55,236 nucleotides of DNA from a virus: IMG/VR virus record IMGVR_UViG_3300028802_000019, positions 1-55,236 of that record. One strand, 5' to 3'. Shown piece by piece: positions 1 through 47,415 of the stretch; positions within the stretch are counted from its first letter, which is position 1, and every line of letters begins with the position of its first letter. Made by a program: the position numbers and the translations under genes. A model generated the notes under the pieces. It was not told the origin of the DNA. It saw only the letters and a program-made list of their open reading frames with translations, and searched no databases.

Positions 1-1360
1 TGTGAGCCGATTCCTCGGCCGCGTGGTGACCCAGTTCGTGGATCACCGTGGCCACGATCTCGTGGTTGTTGCCGACGTGGAACCATTCCCAGCCGACAGC
101 GCCCTGGTTGAAGATGACTGAGCCACGGCTGGCCGCGGCGATGCAGTGCGGAGCGTTGGCGCCGCCGTTGATGCTCACCGTGATGGTGTCGTGGGGGAAG
201 GCGACCTTGGCCACCGCTCGTGTCCAGCCGACCACGCGCACCGCATCGGGGTGCCACTCGTGCTCGGGGATCGGAGCATCGAGCGATCCCTCGACACCGC
301 TGCCGAAGTCACGCGTGCTGGCTGGCGCCAGGTCCACGTACACGTCGCGGGCACGCTTGACCGCGTCCCACGCCTCGGCGTTGAGCGAGCCGCCGTAGAT
401 GACAGCGCGACCGGCCGAGGCAGCGTCAGCGTTGGCGCCACGGTTGGGTGTGGCCACCACCGCATCGGGACCGAAGCGGCCCGTGATGATGGCCTGAGCG
501 GCCACAGGCGTCGTGTGCTTGCCGAGGGTGTCCCCGGCCCAGCCCTGTGCGTCCTCGGTGGTCAGCTTGTCGCGCTCAGCGAGAGCGTTGGTGACGACGG
601 CCAGGATCTTGGCCACGGTCGGCGCGGCCACCTGGTCGCGTGCGTGGTCCATCTTCAGCCGACCGTGGACGTTGATCGAGTACGGGCACTCGACCGGCTG
701 CACGGGCATGCCGAGGACGTGGAGCGTGGGACCGTGTGAGCCAGGCTCGTGGAGCGTGATGAGCACGGTGCGCGAGAGCGTCACGAACTTGTACGGATCC
801 TCGGCCGAGGACACGAACAGCGGCAGTGCCGTGCGCGTGTCGAGCAGTGCGGGGCGCGGTGCGAGCACCATGCCGTTGACGGTCACGCGCTGGCTGAGGT
901 CGAGCACGATCTCACGCAGCGCTGCGATCATCGTCGCCTGGTCCTCGCGGTTCATGCGCATCACGAACTCGTGACGCGAGCCGACATCGGTCTTGGAGCG
1001 CAGCATCGTGCGCGTGCCGTTGCGGTCGAACCGCACGCTGCCCGACATCGTGGTGATGACGCCCTCGACGCAGTAGGCGAGGAACTCTTTCTCGCCCATG
1101 TTGAAGATGCCGCGCTTGCGGTCGTCGTTGGCCTTGGTGCTCGGCGCGAACAGCGTGAACGAGTCGGCCAGGTTGACGTAGCCCACGGGGTCGTTGTCGG
1201 TGACCACCACCCGGCCGAGGCCACGCCCATCGGGCGTGATCTCGACCGTGATCTCGGTGGCGTCGGTGTCGAGTGCGTTCTGCACCATCTCGGTGATGAC
1301 CTTGGCCAGGCTGCTGTTGGAGCGCAGCCCAGCGAGGTCGGTGTCCAGCCAGCCGGTCAT
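1..1360 (-). CDS. GHKL-type ATPase with C-terminal HExxH motif (3' end outside window)
   Basis: The gene starts with ATG at 1360 and overlaps the Ku stop codon by one base (TGATG). It runs off the left edge with 453 residues visible. Residues 20-110 look like a Bergerat-fold (GHKL) ATPase: an N-box with E24, N28 and D31, then a TDNDP segment (D55, D57) like the ADP-binding DxGxG loop, and a later GIFNMGEKEFL stretch that resembles the GxxGxG lid of Hsp90, MutL and topoisomerase VI B. Near the left edge is HELGHH (H441, E442, H445), a classic zinc-metallopeptidase signature. Known phage GHKL proteins include the T4 rIIA type, but a linked HExxH motif is not something I recognise. It sits last in a MoxR-Ku-GHKL operon, so it may be a partner of the MoxR/VWA pair. 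ATP binding is well supported by motifs; the protease activity is inference, since the third zinc ligand is out of sight. Confidence 0.82.
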   Translation of the reverse strand, partial: MTGWLDTDLAGLRSNSSLAKVITEMVQNALDTDATEITVEITPDGRGLGRVVVTDNDPVGYVNLADSFTLFAPSTKANDDRKRGIFNMGEKEFLAYCVEGVITTMSGSVRFDRNGTRTMLRSKTDVGSRHEFVMRMNREDQATMIAALREIVLDLSQRVTVNGMVLAPRPALLDTRTALPLFVSSAEDPYKFVTLSRTVLITLHEPGSHGPTLHVLGMPVQPVECPYSINVHGRLKMDHARDQVAAPTVAKILAVVTNALAERDKLTTEDAQGWAGDTLGKHTTPVAAQAIITGRFGPDAVVATPNRGANADAASAGRAVIYGGSLNAEAWDAVKRARDVYVDLAPASTRDFGSGVEGSLDAPIPEHEWHPDAVRVVGWTRAVAKVAFPHDTITVSINGGANAPHCIAAASRGSVIFNQGAVGWEWFHVGNNHEIVATVIHELGHHAAEESAH

Positions 1361-2160
1361 CACGCCACCTTGCCCTTGGCAGCCTGCGCCGCCTCGATGC
1401 TGGCCTGAAGCGCCGCCATGAGGTCATCGGTGGCGGCGACCGCGATCGGTGCGGGCTTGGGCGCCCCACCGGCCTTGGCGTCCACGTAGGCCTGCACCAC
1501 CGGAGCGGTGTCGTCCACGATGACCGGCGTGTCGATGCCGATGGCGTCGATCAGGGCCGTGGCCATGTCGATCTCGGCCTTGGTGTGCTTGCCCTGATCG
1601 AGGGCCAGCGGCTGGCGCACCGCGTCGGCGGTGAGGATCATGCGCAGGTCGCCGTCGCTCGTGAGGATGGCGTAGCGGGCGGGGCCGCGCATGGCCATCT
1701 TCACGAGGATCCCGACCTTGCGGGCCTTCAGGCCTGCGAACAGCAGGCTGAGCGCCTTGACGCCAGAGCGATCCGGCACGCCCTTGATGGACTTCGGACG
1801 GACCTGGTACAGGCCTTCGGTGAGGTACTGGTCGAAGTCCTTCGTAGGAACGAATGACACGATCTCGGCCACGCCCTTGGGGCTGGTGCAGGCGGCGATC
1901 TCGTCGTCGTCCAGTGCGACCCAGGTGCCGTTCGTGGCCTGCGCCATGCGAACGACATCGGTCGAGTGGATGGTGTCGCCCGTGTCCTTGCGGATCGGGC
2001 TGCGTCCGACCTCGACCGTGGTGTCCCCTGCGAAGAACTCTTTGCGAGACACGCGGGTGGCCTCAGTCGAGGTGTAGACGCTGAGCGGGATGTTGAGCAT
2101 CCCGGCTGCGAGCGTGATGCTCGTCGTGGCCCTGGTGGGCGCTGCGGCTGTTGCGTACAT
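1360..2160 (-). CDS. ku: Ku-family DNA end-binding protein (phage Ku)
   Basis: The 266-residue product matches the bacterial Ku core throughout. It has an N-terminal strand (TLAAGMLNIPLSVYTSTE), the DVVRMAQ..GTWVALDDDEIAA segment, the EIVSFVPTKDFD motif and KALSLLFAGLKARKVGILVKMAMRG, all in the usual Ku order. Bacterial Ku homodimers ring DNA ends and recruit ligase LigD. Mycobacteriophages Omega and Corndog are known to carry Ku. A hydrophobic Ala-rich helix (AALQASIEAAQAAKGKVA) forms the tail in place of the long basic tail of some host Ku proteins. The start at 2160 has AAGGAAG about 6 bases upstream and lies behind a triple CCGAA leader. No LigD-like ligase is visible here, so host LigD would be the expected partner. 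It is likely to act on genome ends or on breaks made during replication. Confidence 0.9.
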   Translation of the reverse strand: MYATAAAPTRATTSITLAAGMLNIPLSVYTSTEATRVSRKEFFAGDTTVEVGRSPIRKDTGDTIHSTDVVRMAQATNGTWVALDDDEIAACTSPKGVAEIVSFVPTKDFDQYLTEGLYQVRPKSIKGVPDRSGVKALSLLFAGLKARKVGILVKMAMRGPARYAILTSDGDLRMILTADAVRQPLALDQGKHTKAEIDMATALIDAIGIDTPVIVDDTAPVVQAYVDAKAGGAPKPAPIAVAATDDLMAALQASIEAAQAAKGKVA

Positions 2161-2175
2161 GATGGCTTCCTTGTT

Positions 2176-2193
2176 GGTTCGGTTCGGTTCGGT
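2176..2193 (-). promoter_or_regulatory. Leader element with triple CCGAACCGAA repeat upstream of Ku
   Basis: On the minus strand the 5' leader of Ku reads ACCGAACCGAACCGAACC, ending about 15 bases before the start codon. The same ACCGAACCGA core precedes the MoxR, VWA, membrane-protein (8495) and Topo VI A-like genes, and a shorter AACCGAA precedes 39631. A TGTGACA/TGTCACA heptamer lies just upstream at 2198-2204. The element is probably the start of the transcript or an operator at the transcription start; which of these is not decided by the sequence. Confidence 0.55.
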
Positions 2194-2216
2194 GTCTTGT
2201 GACAGTGAGGACGTTA

Positions 2217-2250
2217 CCGGGTGGAGCCGCTTGATAGCAACTCCACCCGG
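2217..2250 (-). terminator. Perfect 10-bp hairpin between MoxR and Ku genes
   Basis: CCGGGTGGAG (2217-2226) pairs perfectly with CTCCACCCGG (2241-2250) around a 14-base loop. It lies after the MoxR stop codon and before the Ku promoter and leader region, where an intrinsic or attenuating terminator would be expected. No U-tract follows on the minus strand, so it could instead act as an mRNA-stabilising or rho-assisting structure. Confidence 0.5.
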
Positions 2251-2261
2251 TTGAGGCCTGA

Positions 2262-3635
2262 TCAGGCCTCGGCTGCGACCAGTTCGGACTTCAGCATCTC
2301 CACGATGGTGCGGTCGGTGATGATGGCCTGGACCACGTCGCGCTCGGACGGGTCGAACATCCCCAGCAGGGTGTACATGGCCAACTCTGGTCCCATGGCG
2401 GTGACGTTGCGCTGGATCCGCTGAAGGGCGCTCGTGCCCACGGGGGTCTGGATCTCGGACGCCTTGCGAGCGTTGCGCAGAGCCTCGCCCAGCAGGCGCA
2501 CGGTCGGGGACTTGACCAGCTTGTTCTCCACGGTCGGGTCGTAGTCCCACACGAGGTGTTCGAACCGCTGCGCGAAGGCCTGGTTCATCTTGCCCATGCC
2601 GCGGTAGCCCTCGTTGTAGGTGGCGACCACCCACGTGTCCAGGCTCGTGGCCACGACCGAGGGCATGAACTGCCCGTCGCGCCACTCGGGCTTGTTGCGG
2701 TTGACGAAGGCGTGCCGGTGGTCGATGACCGGGTGGAGGCTGGACGTCACGCGCTCGCCCATGGCGTTCATCTCGTCCAGGTAGAGGATGCCGCCGCACT
2801 GGCTGGCCAACTCCACGATGCCGGGGAGCCACACCAGCGACTCGACGCCCGTGATCGGGTCGGTGTAGCTCGTGGTCTGACCGAACAGGTCGAAGTCGGT
2901 CACGCCGCTGGAGCCGCTGATCGTGAAGATGGGCATGGGCTTGGGCAGGCCGAGGGCGTCGGACCAGGCCACCGCCAGCGTCTCCACGAGGAAGGTTTTC
3001 CCGGACTGCGTGTCGCCCTTCAGGGCGATGTTGGTGGGGCGACCCTCGTTGGCGATGCGGTACGTGTCGCTGGCGAAGATGAGCAGGAACTCGATGTCCG
3101 TCATGCCGTTGGCCATGATCCGGTTGATGTAGCGCTTGACCTTGGAGCGCTGGGGGCGCAGGTGGTCGAGGCGCTCGTCCATCGGATCCTCGATCGGGTT
3201 GAGCACCCGGCCCTCGACCATCACCAGCGGGGCGACCACATCGGCCACGAGGGGCAGTGTGGTCGGCGGCGGGGGCGGGGGCAGCAGGCCGACCTCGGCA
3301 GCTTCAGCCTTGGCCTCAGCGATCAGGTTGACCAGTGCGTCGGTGACGTCGGCGGTGGGCGCCTCGTCCAGCACGAGCACGCCGCCGTTGCGGATGGCCT
3401 GCGCTTCGGGACTCTCGCCCACGAACGGGGGAACGAGCACCGGTTCGGCTTCAAGCTGGCGGGGCAGGATGTTGACGACGGTGCCGTCAGCGAAACGCAC
3501 CGGCAGCTTGCGGGCATCGGGGTGCCCGTCCGGGAAGGTCTTGTTGGAGATGACGGTGACGATCTCGCCAGCGCCACGCTGGTCAGCTTTGATCCGGTAG
3601 CTGAAGCCGGGGTAGAGGTCGGAGGTGAGTGCCAT
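2262..3635 (-). CDS. MoxR/CobS-type AAA+ ATPase
   Basis: The product has 457 residues. Its N-terminal 200 residues are unrecognised apart from a short proline run; a AAA+ core follows. Walker A is GDTQSGKT (about residues 207-214), Walker B GGILYLDEMNAM (about 282-293), sensor 1 the VVATYNEGY stretch, and a likely arginine finger lies in NQAFAQRFEH. This layout is that of MoxR and CobS ATPases, which remodel or load partners and nearly always pair with a VWA-domain protein; here the VWA gene diverges from it at 4055. The start at 3635 (ATG) is preceded by GAAGGGATC and by the ACCGAACCGA leader. Genuine cobaltochelatase function is unlikely because no cobalamin genes are nearby. It probably works with the VWA protein and perhaps the GHKL protein in the same operon. 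Confidence 0.88.
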   Translation of the reverse strand: MALTSDLYPGFSYRIKADQRGAGEIVTVISNKTFPDGHPDARKLPVRFADGTVVNILPRQLEAEPVLVPPFVGESPEAQAIRNGGVLVLDEAPTADVTDALVNLIAEAKAEAAEVGLLPPPPPPTTLPLVADVVAPLVMVEGRVLNPIEDPMDERLDHLRPQRSKVKRYINRIMANGMTDIEFLLIFASDTYRIANEGRPTNIALKGDTQSGKTFLVETLAVAWSDALGLPKPMPIFTISGSSGVTDFDLFGQTTSYTDPITGVESLVWLPGIVELASQCGGILYLDEMNAMGERVTSSLHPVIDHRHAFVNRNKPEWRDGQFMPSVVATSLDTWVVATYNEGYRGMGKMNQAFAQRFEHLVWDYDPTVENKLVKSPTVRLLGEALRNARKASEIQTPVGTSALQRIQRNVTAMGPELAMYTLLGMFDPSERDVVQAIITDRTIVEMLKSELVAAEA

Positions 3636-3672
3636 GGCAGTTGATCCCTTCAGATCGGTTCGGTTGCTGGCA

Positions 3673-3700
3673 ACTCTACACCCTTACCACGCTATGACAA
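3673..3700 (-). promoter_or_regulatory. Putative sigma70-like promoter for the MoxR-Ku-GHKL operon
   Basis: On the minus strand TTGTCA (3695-3700) and TAGAGT (3673-3678) are separated by 16 bases, a good match to a vegetative -35/-10 pair. The ACCGAACCGA leader begins about 8 bases downstream of the -10. The -35 is part of one of the dispersed TGTCATA sites (3693-3699) and overlaps the last codons of the upstream AP2-like gene. Confidence 0.55.
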
Positions 3701-3961
3701 CGCCATACCCGATGTTTCATCGCGCACCAGGTCAAACCTCACACAGCATGACCCCAACCGCTGCGCCTCGGCCAGGCGGTTGCCAGAGCCAGGAGCGAAC
3801 AGCAGGCCGCGGTCGTGGACCCACTTGGCGGCAGCGGCGCCGATCTCATCGGCAGTGTCGTAGCGGCCGAGGTCGTACTCACGGCCAGCGATGGTGACGT
3901 CGAGGTAGTAGCGATCGCGGTCGAACAGGATGGTGATGGTGGTGGGTGGTAGCTCTCTCAC
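3692..3961 (-). CDS. Small AP2-like DNA-binding domain protein
   Basis: An 89-residue reading frame starts with GTG at 3961; upstream frames only extend antisense through the VWA gene. The core (FDRDRYYLDVTIAGREYDLGRYDTADEIGAAAAKWV in outline) has the three short strands and one helix pattern of AP2 domains: a strand, an internal xxxGRxYxLGRYDT turn, then an alanine-rich helix. Free-standing AP2 domains and AP2 domains fused to HNH nucleases are common in phages, where they bind DNA. It lies directly upstream of MoxR and diverges from the VWA gene, with an inverted repeat between them, so a local regulator is a reasonable guess. No ATG start is available and the Shine-Dalgarno is weak, so the start is uncertain. 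Confidence 0.6.
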   Translation of the reverse strand: MRELPPTTITILFDRDRYYLDVTIAGREYDLGRYDTADEIGAAAAKWVHDRGLLFAPGSGNRLAEAQRLGSCCVRFDLVRDETSGMALS

Positions 3962-3972
3962 ACCCAGTTGAA

Positions 3973-3986
3973 GGACGGCTCCGTCC
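3973..3986. promoter_or_regulatory. Inverted repeat in the divergent MoxR/VWA control region
   Basis: GGACGGCTCCGTCC is a perfect 6-bp inverted repeat with a 2-base centre. It lies between the start of the AP2-like gene (3961) and the promoter of the VWA gene (4019-4047). Its position suits an operator or a short hairpin in the leader of the minus-strand gene. The assignment rests on symmetry and position only. Confidence 0.35.
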
Positions 3987-4018
3987 CAATGTGTCAAGAT
4001 GATCTTGTGACAGGTGGT

Positions 4019-4047
4019 GTGCAAGGGAACGGAACCTTTGATATGCT
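4019..4047 (+). promoter_or_regulatory. Putative promoter for the VWA gene
   Basis: GTGCAA (4019-4024) and TATGCT (4042-4047, preceded by TGA) are spaced by 17 bases. The TATGCT hexamer recurs upstream of the 8495 gene. The ACCGAACCGA element follows at 4058-4067, so either the transcript is nearly leaderless for a start at 4055, or translation begins downstream at 4094. A TTGTGACA sequence sits at 4005-4012. Confidence 0.5.
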
Positions 4048-4054
4048 CGTCCCC

Positions 4055-6250
4055 ATGACCGAACCGATGAGCAACAGCAAGCGCCGCAAGGCGATGACCG
4101 ATGAGGGCCGTCTGCTCCTTCAGCGGCAGCGGGCACGCATCGCTCGCGAGCAGGCTGAACTGGGCGAGAAGTGGGCCAACGAGGCCAAGCACGCCGCCGC
4201 CGCTGGCGCCGTCCTGGCCGCGAAGAACGATCCCGTCCACAACGCCATCAGCCGGGGCATCGTGCGCCGGGTCGCTGGCGTGCTGGCCTCGGAGAAGGTC
4301 ACCCCCGGCATTGAGGTGCGCCCCGTGGACCTCGATGAGGGCGAGACGATGCGGGCCTACACCGACTTCCGCACGATCACGGTGAACTACACGCCGCACA
4401 GCGACAAGCGCCTGCTGGCCGCGACGATGCGTGGCCTGATGTACCACGAGGGTGGCCACATCCGCTGGAGCACCCCGTACGACACGCTCGTGCAGATGGT
4501 GGTCGATGCTGAGTCGCTGCGCGCCGCCGTCGCTGGCGAGCGCCCCCGGCCGATCTACGTTCCGGGCCACGACGTCATGCAGCACCAGCGGGTGTGGAAC
4601 GCCCTGGAGGACCAGCGCATGGAAACGGCCGTCGTCAGCGACAGCCCGCGCAAGGCTGCGTACTTCACGCCGCTCGTGATGACCGAGATCATCCAGACCC
4701 CGGAGCGCGCCGCCGCCAACTACCCGCTGCTGGTGTGGCGCCGGTACCTGCCCCGCAACATCCGCCGCGGCGCTCGTGCGGCCTTCGTGGCCCTGGTCGA
4801 TGCCAAGGGCAACGATGGCGAGGCGCTGGCCAAGGCCTTCGAAGCTGCCACCACCAAGTACGTGTTGGCCACCGACCACCTGACCATGTGGGAGGCCGTG
4901 TGCGAGGCCGTGGCGCTCTACGCAGAGCAGCCGCCGCAGGCCTCCCTGGGCGACCAGGCGATGGGCCACCAGAGCCAGAAGAACTCTCCCGCCGAGCAGG
5001 CCAAGGCCAAGGCGGGCGAGAAGCTGGAGATCCCGGTCGATCCCTCGATGATCGATGAGGACGACGAGGGCGACGAGGCCGAGGACGACGACACGATCGA
5101 GGACGACGATCACGCCGAGGACTTTGACAACGACGACACCTACCCCAGCGTGGATGACGATGAGGCCGATGACGACAGCGACGACGAGGCCGAGGGCCAG
5201 GGCGCTGCGCAAGCCGAGGGCGACGACACCGAGGGCGACGACGAGGGCGACGCTGACAGCGGCGACGACATCGGTGAGAGCACCGAGGACGAGGCCGAGG
5301 ACGACAGCGACGAGGTTGGCGAGGGCGCTGGCGGCGATGCGGGCAACCACGAGGGCGACGACGAGCCGCTGACCCAGGACGAGATCGACCAGGCCAAGGC
5401 TGAGGCCGACGACAAGTGGCTGAACGATGCGGCCGTCGAGGAAGACCTGAAGGCCTACGAGGATGCGCTCAACACGGGCGCCTCGCAGTTGCCGGTGTAC
5501 ATCGGCGGCGTGAGCAACGACCTGGCGGCGGCTTCCAAGGCCGAGATCCTGGCCAACCAGATCGAGCAGGCGTTCCAGGCGGCGACCATGGACCGTGAGC
5601 CTGCGTGGATCGAACAGCAGCGCCGGGGGATCATCAACGTCAACCGCTACGCCACGCGCCAGGCGGGCGACGTCGAGTACTTCCGCAACTGGGTCGAGGA
5701 CGATCAGCCTGGCTACAACCTGGCCGTGTCGGTCCTGCTGGACTACAGCGGGTCGATGGGGTCGCACATGGTCGAACTGGCCCAGTGCGGCTACGCCGTG
5801 AAGCTGGCCTGCTCCAACCTCGGGATCCCCTGCACCGTCACGCTGTGGGACTCCAAGGCGGCGACGTTGTGGGACGCCAACGAGGAACCGCGTGGCCTGC
5901 CGATCATCCGCTCAGCCGGATCGACCAACCCGTCACAGGCGCTGGCCGACCTGGAGAACCAGCGGTACGAGCGGGAGAACCACCTCGTGCTGGTGATGAC
6001 CGATGGCATCTGGGACGACGAGTGGAACCAGCGCAAGAACCGCGGCCGTCCGGTGCCCTCCAACCGCACGGTGGCGTTCTACGCCGGTCAGGGCCGCACG
6101 TTCATCGGCTTCGGCTACGACACGAGCACCTACGCGGCCCAGCAGTACGCCAAGAACCTGAACGGCTACGGCATCCGCGAGAGCTACGGGATCACCGACC
6201 TCATGGCGATCCCCAAGCGCCTCCAGGAGGCGCTGATCCGCCTGGCGTGA
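4055..6250 (+). CDS. VWA-domain protein with N-terminal HExxH metallopeptidase-like domain
   Basis: The product has 731 residues from ATG 4055; ATGs at 4067 and 4094 are alternatives, and 4094 has the better AAGG spacing. The N-terminal part is helical and carries MYHEGGHIRWS with H131, E132 and H135, the zinc site expected of the DUF2201-type metallopeptidase-like domains that precede VWA domains. Residues about 330-455 are an extreme Asp/Glu-rich linker. The C-terminal VWA domain starts around residue 550, with DYSGSMGSHM (D563, S565, S567) as the MIDAS metal site and VLVMTDGIWDDEW as the later MIDAS aspartate region. This is the CobT-like partner of MoxR ATPases. In bacteria MoxR-VWA pairs act as metal-dependent chaperones and occur in vWA-MoxR conflict systems. 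It diverges from the MoxR operon. Zinc peptidase activity is inferred from the motif. Confidence 0.87.
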   Translation: MTEPMSNSKRRKAMTDEGRLLLQRQRARIAREQAELGEKWANEAKHAAAAGAVLAAKNDPVHNAISRGIVRRVAGVLASEKVTPGIEVRPVDLDEGETMRAYTDFRTITVNYTPHSDKRLLAATMRGLMYHEGGHIRWSTPYDTLVQMVVDAESLRAAVAGERPRPIYVPGHDVMQHQRVWNALEDQRMETAVVSDSPRKAAYFTPLVMTEIIQTPERAAANYPLLVWRRYLPRNIRRGARAAFVALVDAKGNDGEALAKAFEAATTKYVLATDHLTMWEAVCEAVALYAEQPPQASLGDQAMGHQSQKNSPAEQAKAKAGEKLEIPVDPSMIDEDDEGDEAEDDDTIEDDDHAEDFDNDDTYPSVDDDEADDDSDDEAEGQGAAQAEGDDTEGDDEGDADSGDDIGESTEDEAEDDSDEVGEGAGGDAGNHEGDDEPLTQDEIDQAKAEADDKWLNDAAVEEDLKAYEDALNTGASQLPVYIGGVSNDLAAASKAEILANQIEQAFQAATMDREPAWIEQQRRGIINVNRYATRQAGDVEYFRNWVEDDQPGYNLAVSVLLDYSGSMGSHMVELAQCGYAVKLACSNLGIPCTVTLWDSKAATLWDANEEPRGLPIIRSAGSTNPSQALADLENQRYERENHLVLVMTDGIWDDEWNQRKNRGRPVPSNRTVAFYAGQGRTFIGFGYDTSTYAAQQYAKNLNGYGIRESYGITDLMAIPKRLQEALIRLA

Positions 6251-9808: not shown

Positions 9809-9910
9809 TCAGGTGCCCGTTGTCGGCCACGTCGTCCAGTAGACGACGTGGGCGTTGCCACTCACCGGCCAGCGCGTCCAGTAGACGACGTGAGCGCTAC
9901 CGCTGCTCAC
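9809..9910 (-). CDS. 33-residue peptide with tandem AHVVYWTxWP repeat
   Basis: A GTG at 9910 overlaps the stop of the upstream 461-residue gene as GTGA, and the frame ends with TGA at 9809. The 33 residues contain two copies, 14 residues apart, of a motif reading AHVVYWT-x-WP, each preceded by SGS or SGN. At DNA level the two copies share an identical 18-base stretch (9833-9850 and 9875-9892). The Shine-Dalgarno would lie inside the upstream gene. Coupled starts on both sides argue for translation. The composition, two copies of a Val-Val-Tyr-Trp strand with proline turns, suggests a beta-hairpin; the function is unknown. Confidence 0.55.
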   Translation of the reverse strand: MSSGSAHVVYWTRWPVSGNAHVVYWTTWPTTGT

Positions 9911-11292
9911 TCGTCCTCGGTCATCTCAGCGATGATCTCGTCGGAGGTCACGGGCGTCTCCAACATCGTGGCGTTCTGGCCCACCTGAGCGCCGAACAGC
10001 CTGCTCAGCACACCCATACCCGCCTTTGCGTCCCCCTTGGAGTCCACGGTGATCTTCAGGGAGTCGCGACTGTCCTCGATGTTGCGCCAGCGCTCCACCA
10101 TCGAGAACAGGCGGTCCATCTCCTTGCCCAACTCGGGGGAGTGCTCGCCCTGGACCTCTTCCCCGAAGCGGCCCATCAGGATGCGCTGGGTCTGGATCTC
10201 GGTGATGGCCCGGAGCACGCCCACAAGCTGGGTCTTGGTCTTGATCTCGACCGGGATCTGGTAGCTGCACGGGCTGTTCGGAGTGAACATCGGGCAGCCG
10301 ATGGCGAGGGTGCAGGTGTTGCACTGGCGCAGGCTCTCGGGGGTCACCGAGATCACCGGCAGGGTGATGTCCACCTCGTTGCCGTCCTCGTCGGTGCGGG
10401 TCTCCGAGGCGCTGCTGGTGCCCATCACTGGCAGCAGGTGGTGCCGGGTTAGAGGGGTCGGTCTGGCAACTCCTGGATTGATCGGGACCACATTGTGGGG
10501 CATCGAGGTCGGACGATTGGCAACTTCAGAATCGCTGGCCGGAACGACCGCAGTTGACAGTCCGCGCACCAGGTGGCGCTCCAGGGCGAGCCACGAGAAG
10601 ACGGCCAGACGGAGCAACTCGTCCATGTCGTCGTCCAGGATCTTGGCCACGTCCACGCCGAGGGCGTCGATCGAGGAGGCGTACTTCTCCCGCTTGATGC
10701 GCTTGTCGTCGGCGTTCAGGCGCAGCAGCCGGTTGGCAGCCCATACCTGGGTTTCGCCGTACTTCTGCACGTTCCACCAAGCACTCGATACCAACGTATC
10801 GAACCGCTCTATGCCCTTGGAACGGCCGGTGATCGCCGCCAACTGGCCGAGCTTGTTGATCGAGGCCCGAGCTTGACGCACCGCCACGGGGTTGTCCACC
10901 ACCGCATCGGGCAGGGTCACGCCGTCGTAGTTCTCGGTGTAGTCACGCAGGATCGTGGGATCGACAGCGTCCCAAACCGGCAGGAAGAGCAGGTCGGTGT
11001 TGGCCAGCCAGGTGCCCTCGTACCAAGTGATCGGGCCGGTGACTATCTCGGGCTGCACTTCAGCGCCCTGGAGCACCTCCAGAGCCGGGTCAGCAGGGAC
11101 TTGGGGGCTATCGGCATAGAGCACCCATTCCATGTTGGACAGGCGCTTGGACGAGGCCCACTTGCCGAGATTCTCGGAGTTGTTAGTAGCCCGCACGAGG
11201 TTGTGCGTGTTGACGGCTATCCGCTCAACTCCGCACTCCTTCAGGATCGACAGATGGCTGGATACCTCGGCTCCTGCGAAGTAAAGCTGCAC
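9907..11292 (-). CDS. Hypothetical protein with four-cysteine motif
   Basis: The 461-residue product begins at GTG 11292, straight after the stop of the gene upstream. The N-terminal 250 residues look like an alpha/beta fold (LYFAGAEVSSHLSILKECGV then an IAVNTHNL strand). Around residues 323-338 lies a C-x2-C-x5-C-x7-C cluster (CNTCTLAIGCPMF..SPC) that could bind zinc or an iron-sulphur cluster. The C-terminal third is helical and acidic, ending TSDEIIAEMTEDE. I considered a TGT/DpdA-like deazaguanine enzyme because of the FAGAE start, but its zinc motif is not matched. It is the last large gene of the minus-strand run before the small repeat peptide and AP2-like genes. Confidence 0.78.
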   Translation of the reverse strand: MQLYFAGAEVSSHLSILKECGVERIAVNTHNLVRATNNSENLGKWASSKRLSNMEWVLYADSPQVPADPALEVLQGAEVQPEIVTGPITWYEGTWLANTDLLFLPVWDAVDPTILRDYTENYDGVTLPDAVVDNPVAVRQARASINKLGQLAAITGRSKGIERFDTLVSSAWWNVQKYGETQVWAANRLLRLNADDKRIKREKYASSIDALGVDVAKILDDDMDELLRLAVFSWLALERHLVRGLSTAVVPASDSEVANRPTSMPHNVVPINPGVARPTPLTRHHLLPVMGTSSASETRTDEDGNEVDITLPVISVTPESLRQCNTCTLAIGCPMFTPNSPCSYQIPVEIKTKTQLVGVLRAITEIQTQRILMGRFGEEVQGEHSPELGKEMDRLFSMVERWRNIEDSRDSLKITVDSKGDAKAGMGVLSRLFGAQVGQNATMLETPVTSDEIIAEMTEDE

Positions 11293-45279: not shown

Positions 45280-45581
45280 GTGACGACGATCGTCGGGACA
45301 GCCCAGTCGATCGCGAGCGCGTCTACGACCGGATAGCTCCGCTCATCATGGTGTTCAGCCGTCGCTGTGGTGAGGAACCGTTCCACGCCGAAGAACTGCG
45401 GACCTACGTCCGTGATCGGGTGCCGGAGATCGCACCGGCCTCTCCTGACCGGATTCTGCGGCAACTGCGCCTGGAGAAGAAGCTGGACTACATAGTCCTC
45501 AACCGCCGTGCTTCTCTCTATCAGTTCGGTCCCCCACCGCCGCGGCGGCGCCGTGTGATCCCGCCACGGGATACCTTGTGA
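45276..45581 (+). CDS. Small winged-helix-like protein
   Basis: The 101-residue product starts at GTG 45276, overlapping the primase stop as GTGA. The middle (DRVPEIAPASPDRILRQLRL then DYIVLNRRASLYQF) fits a winged helix. It lies between primase and the SNF2 helicase genes, where a DNA-binding accessory would fit. No family is recognised. Confidence 0.65.
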   Translation: MSDDDRRDSPVDRERVYDRIAPLIMVFSRRCGEEPFHAEELRTYVRDRVPEIAPASPDRILRQLRLEKKLDYIVLNRRASLYQFGPPPPRRRRVIPPRDTL

Positions 45582-45856
45582 CAATGGCCTCGAACTTGAA
45601 ACTGCTGGAGAACGCTGACGGCTCGTACACCGTGGACTACGAGTGGAAGACCTACCGCTTCCTGCTGGACGACGGGCGCACGATCGACGTGAAGGGCGTG
45701 CAGGACGACTCCACGCTGCGCGAGGCCGTGCGGACCACCGTCAAGGCCAAGGCCATCGCTGGCGTGGCCTACCTCACACCGACGCCGGTCGAAGAGGAGC
45801 CGAAGAAGCCACCGGTCAAGCGCCGTGCGCGGGCACGCGTCACCGAGGATGCGTGA
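45578..45856 (+). CDS. Hypothetical small protein
   Basis: The 92-residue protein starts at GTG 45578, overlapping the previous stop as GTGA. Residues 5-60 are beta-rich (SYTVDYEWKTYRFLLDDG), the C-terminus basic (KPPVKRRARARVTEDA). The stop overlaps the SNF2 helicase start as GTGA. No function recognised; it may be a small accessory of the helicase. Confidence 0.65.
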   Translation: MTMASNLKLLENADGSYTVDYEWKTYRFLLDDGRTIDVKGVQDDSTLREAVRTTVKAKAIAGVAYLTPTPVEEEPKKPPVKRRARARVTEDA

Positions 45857-47415
45857 GCCAACAGCTTCGTCCGTACCAGATCGAGTGCGCTGAGCGAGCC
45901 GTCGAGCGCGGCAACCTGTTGGTGGCGATGGTCATGGGGTCGGGCAAGACCCCGGCCTCGATCACTGCACTGCGCACACTGCGCCGCCAGGGGGTGATCC
46001 ACTTCGGCGCTGTCTTCGGGCCGCTGTCGTGCATGTACCAGTGGGAGGCCGAGATCCACCGCTGGGATCCTCGGGCCAAGGTGCAGGTGATCATCGGGGA
46101 CAAGCGCGAGCGCACCCGCGCCTTCCGCAACGCTCGCCGGTTCAACTACAACATCTGCTCGTACGGTGCGTTCATCTACGACTGGGATCTGGTCAAGGAG
46201 TATCTGCCCACTGACTTCCTCGTACTCGATGAGGTGTCAGCCATCAAAGGGTTCACGGCCAAGCGTTCAAAGAGAGCCAAGTTACTAGGCAGACGGACCC
46301 CAGTTCGCCTTGGTCTGTCCGGTGCTCCTGTTGAGAACAGGCCTGAGGAACTGTTCTCCATCATGGAGTTCGTTGATCCGACCGTGCTCGGTTCCTTCGA
46401 CAAGTTCGATCGCACCTTCATCGTGCGTGATGGTTGGGGTAGGCCGAAGCGGTACCGCAACCTTCATCTGATACAGCAACGGCTCGGCCCAGCGATGTAC
46501 CGGAAATCTCGCGAGGATATTGCCGAGTGGCTCCCTAAGAAGATCGAGATGGAGATGCCAGTGGTGCTCGACCGCACGGCGATGCGGTTGCACGACCTGA
46601 TCCGGGCCGACCTCAGCGACGCCATCGACAAGGCGATGGCCGGTGGAGTGTCCGGTGGCACCTTCGACGTCAACGCCCACTATGGGCGCCACGAGACCGA
46701 CGACCACACCCTGATGGGTCAGGTGATGAGCCGACTGCTGGCGATGCGCATGCTCTCCAGCCACCCCCACCTGCTGCGCTGCTCGGCCGAGGACTTCGAC
46801 AACCTCCTCACCCGCAAGGGGAGCCAGTACGCCAACGACCTGATGGCCAAGGGGCTGCTCGACAACCTGCCGCTGGAGAACGCCAAGCTCGACGGCCTGC
46901 TGGAGACGACGGCCCAGATCCTCGATGAGGACAAGCGCCACAAGGTCGTCGTGTTCTCGTACTTCAAGCCGATGCTGGCGATGATCGGGCGGGGGATCCA
47001 GAAGTCCAAGGTCGGCTTCACCACGCTGACCGGAGACATCACCTCGGCCCAGGAGCGCTTCCGTCGCATCGAACGGTTCAACACCGAGGACCGCTGCCGT
47101 GTGTTCTTGTCATCGGACGCTGGCGCCTATGGTGTCAACCTCAGTCAGGGATCTCACCTGATCAACTACGACCTTCCGTGGAGTAGTGGCGTCCTTGCCC
47201 AGCGTGTCAGCCGTATCGACCGGACCAACTCGGCCTTCGACCAAATCAACATCATCTACATGTACGGCCACCAGACGATCGAGGAGCGCATGTTCCGCAT
47301 GCTTCAACAGAAGGCAACCGTGGCACGGGCCTTCATCGACGGCGAGTTCGACATCCGCAGCGGCTCGCTGAAGCTGGACCTGGAGAGCCTGCGTGAGTTC
47401 CTCGACGCAGCCTGA
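45853..47415 (+). CDS. SNF2-type DEAD/DEAH helicase
   Basis: The 520-residue product has RPYQIECAERA near the start (Q motif), Walker A MGSGKT (residues 28-33), motif II FLVLDEVSAIKG (about 120), motif III LSGAPVENRPEELFSIMEF, and C-terminal motifs V-VI: FLSSDAGAYGVNLSQGSHLINYDLPW and QRVSRIDRTNSAFDQINIIYMY, characteristic of SNF2/Rad54 family translocases. It could remodel replication or recombination intermediates. It starts at GTG 45853. Many phages carry such a helicase next to the replication operon. Confidence 0.87.
   Translation: MSQQLRPYQIECAERAVERGNLLVAMVMGSGKTPASITALRTLRRQGVIHFGAVFGPLSCMYQWEAEIHRWDPRAKVQVIIGDKRERTRAFRNARRFNYNICSYGAFIYDWDLVKEYLPTDFLVLDEVSAIKGFTAKRSKRAKLLGRRTPVRLGLSGAPVENRPEELFSIMEFVDPTVLGSFDKFDRTFIVRDGWGRPKRYRNLHLIQQRLGPAMYRKSREDIAEWLPKKIEMEMPVVLDRTAMRLHDLIRADLSDAIDKAMAGGVSGGTFDVNAHYGRHETDDHTLMGQVMSRLLAMRMLSSHPHLLRCSAEDFDNLLTRKGSQYANDLMAKGLLDNLPLENAKLDGLLETTAQILDEDKRHKVVVFSYFKPMLAMIGRGIQKSKVGFTTLTGDITSAQERFRRIERFNTEDRCRVFLSSDAGAYGVNLSQGSHLINYDLPWSSGVLAQRVSRIDRTNSAFDQINIIYMYGHQTIEERMFRMLQQKATVARAFIDGEFDIRSGSLKLDLESLREFLDAA

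Follow-up and report, generated by a model that had tools for sequence, protein, structure and literature searches.

MoxR, VWA/zincin and Ku genes as a candidate functional unit inherited together in a phage lineage

The DNA considered here, called the window over its entire length of 55,236 bp (about 65% G+C), is the IMG/VR virus record IMGVR_UViG_3300028802_000019, which carries towards its left end the genes for a bacterial-type Ku, for a MoxR AAA+ ATPase and, divergently oriented, for a protein with a zincin-like HExxH domain and a VWA domain. Their recurrence in further phages supports the view that MoxR, the VWA/zincin protein and Ku form a conserved functional unit that is inherited together. 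The original prediction had described these genes, jointly with a GHKL ATPase gene, as a four-gene cassette; all four genes are real and fall into the named families by Pfam, NCBIfam and fold searches, and co-occurrence extends to the trio, while the GHKL gene stands apart elsewhere. The material consists of uncultivated contigs, analysed by sequence and structure models, and the adjacency of the trio has been seen inside one broad phage lineage.

Co-occurrence, inheritance and regulation of the trio

Besides the window, MoxR, VWA/HExxH and Ku genes recur with the same divergent layout on 12 distinct IMG/VR phage contigs (L002, L023, L024, L025, L026, L027, L029, L033, L034, L038, L042 and L043), which were collected by two separate searches with a Ku and a MoxR query; the trio loci of L025 and L027 are truncated at the ends of their contigs. 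In every trio locus Ku adjoins MoxR on the same strand, 0.1-1.7 kb downstream, and no second Ku was detected in any trio record searched. Equally, the MoxR gene is paired with a VWA gene at every locus where the contig reaches far enough. The MoxR, VWA and Ku trees are congruent, grouping the same contigs, and two changes on the MoxR tree suffice for the presence of Ku. A cellular origin of this MoxR was considered and rejected, as one scan of genome contigs gave no relative; relatives were found only in phage contigs. Relatives of the VWA protein on plasmids were equally not found.

Co-regulation of the trio is supported by leader sequences in at least one relative, L033. Within the 109,846 bp of this contig the 17-mer GTTGGTTTCTGCTAGCA is present in five exact copies (none in the reversed control), located upstream of exactly the VWA, MoxR and Ku genes, a DUF6011 gene and an SF2 helicase gene, with one additional copy with a single mismatch ahead of a small open reading frame adjoining Ku (copies at L033 3560, 3798, 5421, 5655, 8251 and 9245). 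As exact copies precede those five genes and no others, a shared regulon is suggested.

In the window itself, the shared leader elements that had been noticed earlier are well above expectation, with seven copies of ACCGAACCGA versus 0.09 expected, situated ahead of Ku and MoxR, at the start of the VWA gene and ahead of two other genes. The Ku leader (2175-2204, minus strand) contains a ACCGAACCGAACCGAACC repeat and TGTCACAAG, the MoxR leader (3655-3673, minus strand) contains TTGCCAGCAACCGAACCGA, and the VWA leader (3992-4067, plus strand) combines the imperfect palindrome TGTCAAGATGATCTTGTGACA at about 3992-4012 with ACCGAACCGA at 4058-4067. Located between the divergent VWA gene and a small minus-strand open reading frame, this palindrome is likely an operator. 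Furthermore, the 9-mer CTTGTGACA occurs in three exact copies (0.47 expected) before Ku, before VWA and, at 45575-45583, before a SNF2-type helicase gene (45643-47415, plus strand); its exact count and position in the window are suggestive, and copies with one mismatch are not above chance there. The leaders of relatives carry their own, mostly palindromic repeats, such as TGCTAGCA in L026, TTGTGATACCA in L024 and GGTTCCGAACC in L042. The leader repeats look like operators.

Several observations weigh against such a unit. Eight more distinct lineages retrieved with the MoxR query (L039, L041, L045, L047, L048, L049, L050 and L052) are without any copy of Ku in the whole record, with a VWA partner visible in all of them but L052, whose contig begins within MoxR; as the MoxR-VWA pair is kept in these eight lineages, the job of the motor cannot rest on Ku alone. 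Equally, the trio phages have further genes of the region in common, and this shared synteny means that the adjacency of the trio partly reflects common descent. The evidence for operators is strong only in L033 and weaker in the window. Gam or another end-binding protein at the place of Ku was considered for the Ku-less phages and discarded, the genes found there encoding helix-turn-helix or unknown proteins.

Protein families of the trio and neighbouring genes

Gene assignments were made by Pfam, NCBIfam, PHROG, PDB-profile and fold searches. The MoxR gene (2262-3635, minus strand; 457 aa), divergent from the VWA gene, encodes by profile a NorQ/CbbQ class AAA+ ATPase, as demonstrated by matches to Pfam AAA_5 (2e-14) and to CbbQ/NorQ structures (1.1e-14) and by the conservation of Walker A (GDTQSGKT), Walker B (ILYLDE) and N341 (sensor 1) in the alignment.

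Encoded on the plus strand (4055-6250, with the start at 4055 or 4067), the VWA protein of 731 aa comprises HEGGH at aa 131-135, LEDQRME at aa 184-190, a long acidic linker at about aa 300-440 and a C-terminal VWA domain with a metal ion-dependent adhesion site (MIDAS). This site is complete (DYSGSM, T624, MTDG). The VWA domain was not caught by Pfam; in the fold search it matches NorD of the NorQD complex as the top match and the Midasin MIDAS. HExxH is invariant in 18/18 aligned homologues that are 24-52% identical to the window protein, as are the downstream ED(Q)xxE and the MIDAS signature DxSxS...T...D, and a chance HExxH arises in 2% of shuffles of this protein (3% for the GHKL protein). 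In relatives from Gordonia and Brevibacterium phages the motif reads YHELCH (Schomber, Cantare). The AlphaFold model has a mean predicted local distance difference test (pLDDT) score of 76, with the zincin region mostly at 87-97, and in this confident part it places HEGGH within helix 118-138 and the invariant ED(Q)xxE within helix 174-196. A conserved G..NV.RY.TRQ.GD at about aa 525-539 has low pLDDT and a spacing compatible with the NorD/CbbO finger, the compared element being the GRxL(L/I)xxxxT-like tip just before the VWA domain. At the level of prediction, alignment, fold match and model establish a NorD/CobT-like protein that begins with a zincin-like HExxH domain and ends with a VWA/MIDAS domain.

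Ku (1360-2160, minus strand; 266 aa) lies directly downstream of MoxR with a gap of about 100 bp. It matches Pfam Ku (5.8e-13) and, across the whole model, TIGR02772 (6.8e-21), with 74.9 bits that stay under the NCBI equivalog cut-off of 150 bits and so mark it as divergent. A whole-length profile match to solved bacterial Ku, including core and C-terminal tail, identifies it by sequence as bacterial-type Ku. Neither the window nor any of ten other trio records, all of them contigs that may be fragments, yielded an ATP-dependent ligase (PF01068). Lacking a phage ligase, Ku would protect ends or rely on LigD of the host, which agrees with the recircularisation aided by Ku that has been suggested for phage Corndog (PMC4351075). 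A Ku of another type is carried by two phages of the GHKL family, G030 (record of L014; 31533-34032) and G024 (record of L006; 214308-214823), and in G030 an ATP-dependent DNA ligase about 1.4 kb from Ku makes a candidate phage-encoded end-joining pair.

The small open reading frame at 3692-3961 (89 aa), on the same strand as MoxR, had been taken for an AP2-like gene; this assignment is unconfirmed, with no Pfam match and a PHROG match only at 0.26. Beyond the cassette, the window encodes a DNA polymerase, a DnaB helicase, a primase, a UvsX-like recombinase, an endolysin and baseplate genes, and none of 50,697 phage records compared resembles its left 25 kb closely at the DNA level. A TGT-like protein at 9907-11292 (PHROG 887, queuine tRNA-ribosyltransferase), which is possibly involved in DNA-base modification, has relatives close to the cassette in 12 other loci.

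Proposed function and alternative explanations

On balance, we lean towards the MoxR-VWA/zincin pair being a NorQD-like remodelling motor of a phage DNA-transaction module, paired with a Ku that holds or joins DNA ends. By analogy with NorQD and CbbQO (PMC13036017, PMC4660213), MoxR would form a hexamer on which the VWA protein docks as NorD does on NorQ. The hexamer would then grip the finger of the VWA protein and, by ATP-driven twisting of this adaptor, remodel a target whose acidic residue might be held by the MIDAS, with the zincin domain either clipping the target or binding metal. Ku, on the other hand, would bind wherever phage DNA has an end, on entry or after breakage, and either shield that end or leave it to be joined by the host LigD. 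At this stage too, the motor would most likely act by remodelling a protein complex bound to DNA.

A role at DNA ends, one of the possibilities raised initially, gains support from the co-occurrence of the trio and its co-regulation in at least one relative. More generally, position and regulation place the module more probably with the genes of DNA transactions than with those of virion assembly: the distant pairs of phages Schomber, Cantare and BUCTxx99 have genes for DnaB, primase, SSB, recombinase or DNA polymerase in their vicinity, and the L033 element links the trio to a helicase. We know of no tested function of a MoxR-VWA pair in bacteriophages; the tie of the pair to Ku and a helicase by position, inheritance and a regulatory element provides a lead to a role in DNA-end handling or replication with a testable substrate. 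The partnership hints at the handling or clearing of proteins at DNA ends in a little-known phage group, and it prompts the question by what means a phage frees its genome of Ku rings.

The alternative that survives best, a possible if rather unlikely one, is a chaperone-protease of virion assembly, in which the MoxR-VWA/zincin pair remodels and processes structural proteins and Ku, next to it by coincidence, circularises the genome. Virion assembly and processing has indeed been proposed for MoxR and metallopeptidase-vWA of group 2.2 jumbo phages, with a similar role for the pair of Acidianus two-tailed virus (Iyer et al. 2021, PMC7824862), and the Ku-less lineages indicate that the pair works without Ku. 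However, the L033 leader element is common to the pair, Ku, the SF2 helicase and the DUF6011 gene and precedes no other gene in exact copy, and the pair of known phages is found in replication neighbourhoods.

A narrower idea, which we consider improbable, directs the pair at Ku itself, so that it would strip, remodel or cleave Ku rings that stay on the phage genome once its ends have been joined or protected. It would, with similarly little likelihood, make the pair the phage counterpart of eukaryotic p97-type Ku removal and of zincin proteases acting on DNA-bound proteins.

Also improbable is a metal-insertion chaperone like NorQD or CobST, which would deliver metal to a phage or host enzyme with HExxH holding the metal and no peptide being cut. 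The closest solved relatives, NorQ and NorD, insert iron into nitric oxide reductase (PMC13036017), and PHROG and GenBank labels indicate CobS/CobT; yet the loci show no candidate metalloenzyme associated with the pair, and a true CobT-like relative, the protein of Stenotrophomonas phage BUCTxx99, is without HExxH. As phage MoxR-VWA pairs often do, those of L004, L005 and of the Gordonia and Brevibacterium phages in GenBank bear the labels 'porphyrin biosynthesis' and 'CobT-like cobalamin biosynthesis', which are probably misleading designations for a remodelling motor and its adaptor.

The GHKL gene (2-1363, minus strand) is truncated by the contig end, and its start overlaps the stop codon of Ku. 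The protein reaches 2.5e-5 with Pfam HATPase_c, just under the cut-off of Pfam, has a conserved N box (E..QNA.D) and KRG.FN.GEK with a variant G1, and possesses a TRAP1/MORC/MutL fold according to the fold search; its model matches RIIA proteins across the ATPase part, and the best whole-length match in BFVD is the unnamed A0A1B1ITP9. HE[FL][AG]Hx5H, with the spacing of metzincins, is present near the C-terminal end of every full-length family member, members that are cut or of short form being left out of this count, and a weak profile match to myroilysin (E 0.03) agrees with this. The third ligand of the window copy cannot be read as the sequence runs off the contig at HELGHHAAEESAH. As had been noted, the two large proteins bear their metallopeptidase motifs at opposite ends, N-terminal in VWA and C-terminal in GHKL; both motifs are conserved and fall in a helix in the predicted structures.

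The GHKL family, found in 17 other contigs, has no constant neighbour, and the window is the one place where it meets the trio. Whole-record searches of the 20 other MoxR-VWA records, in which positive controls were detected, gave no member of it, and the VWA protein of the trio is in none of the GHKL-family records searched whole. Outside the window the two are thus apart, and searches in both directions together with the missing constant neighbour rule GHKL out as a cassette member: judged by gene content, the GHKL-zincin is a separate accessory protein merely following Ku in the window phage. The family with HExxHx5H (window; L003, L006-L022) is patchily distributed in unrelated phages of up to 485 kb, and a sister form (L012, L018, L019, L020) has a CxxC zinc-ribbon-like tail as C-terminal end instead. 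A four-gene anti-defence or superinfection-exclusion system including a rIIA-like GHKL protein, as originally considered, is consequently very improbable despite the overlap with Ku and the similarity to RIIA, and PADLOC matches are marginal.

Comparison with known systems

That the cassette resembled no recognised system holds for the union with Ku and not for its MoxR and metallopeptidase-vWA half, which is already contained in the account of jumbo phages (PMC7824862). The jumbo-phage pair described there is built alike from two proteins, a MoxR ATPase and a vWA cochaperone that carries a metallopeptidase domain at its N-terminus; in contrast, the trio genes are mostly divergent with Ku after MoxR, and the passage on the jumbo pair in that paper does not mention Ku. 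Viral MoxR-vWA pairs are furthermore known from Acidianus two-tailed virus (p618/p892) and from haloviruses (AAA/vWA). The Acidianus pair has no peptidase domain according to PMC7824862, acts in tail development and is also without Ku.

NorQ/NorD and CbbQ/CbbO share with the trio the MoxR profile, the fold of NorD and a complete MIDAS, whereas PMC13036017 makes no mention of HExxH in NorD and neither nitric oxide reductase nor rubisco is encoded in the trio loci. A further likeness is seen in the CobS/CobT-like pairs of Gordonia phages Schomber, Gray and GMA6 and of Brevibacterium phage Cantare, with AAA and VWA proteins about 26-28% identical, HExxH present and a replication neighbourhood; unlike in the trio, these genes are co-directional, and no Ku is found in the whole records of Schomber and Cantare. 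RIIA and other GHKL phage proteins share the fold of the accessory protein, whose window-type family differs by being short with a C-terminal HExxHx5H. The vWA-MoxR ternary conflict systems of cellular genomes have VMAP or a comparable protein as third component (Kaur et al. 2020, PMC7159879), whereas the third gene here is Ku and the relatives of this MoxR were found only in phage contigs.

The Ku proteins of the Omega and Corndog mycobacteriophage groups equally possess a bacterial-type Ku domain, and the missing phage ligase in the trio records is a further likeness, as expected of a Ku using the host LigD. Identity is, however, about 25%, and the neighbours of Ku in Corndogvirus are a classical AAA protein (PF00004), ParB and a sliding clamp rather than a MoxR-VWA pair; the Corndog ATPase was accordingly dismissed as a precedent for MoxR. 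A literature search limited to open-licence papers found none on a Ku-like protein together with MoxR in phages. While the MoxR-VWA pair and phage Ku have each been described before, what is new is their stable, apparently co-regulated union.

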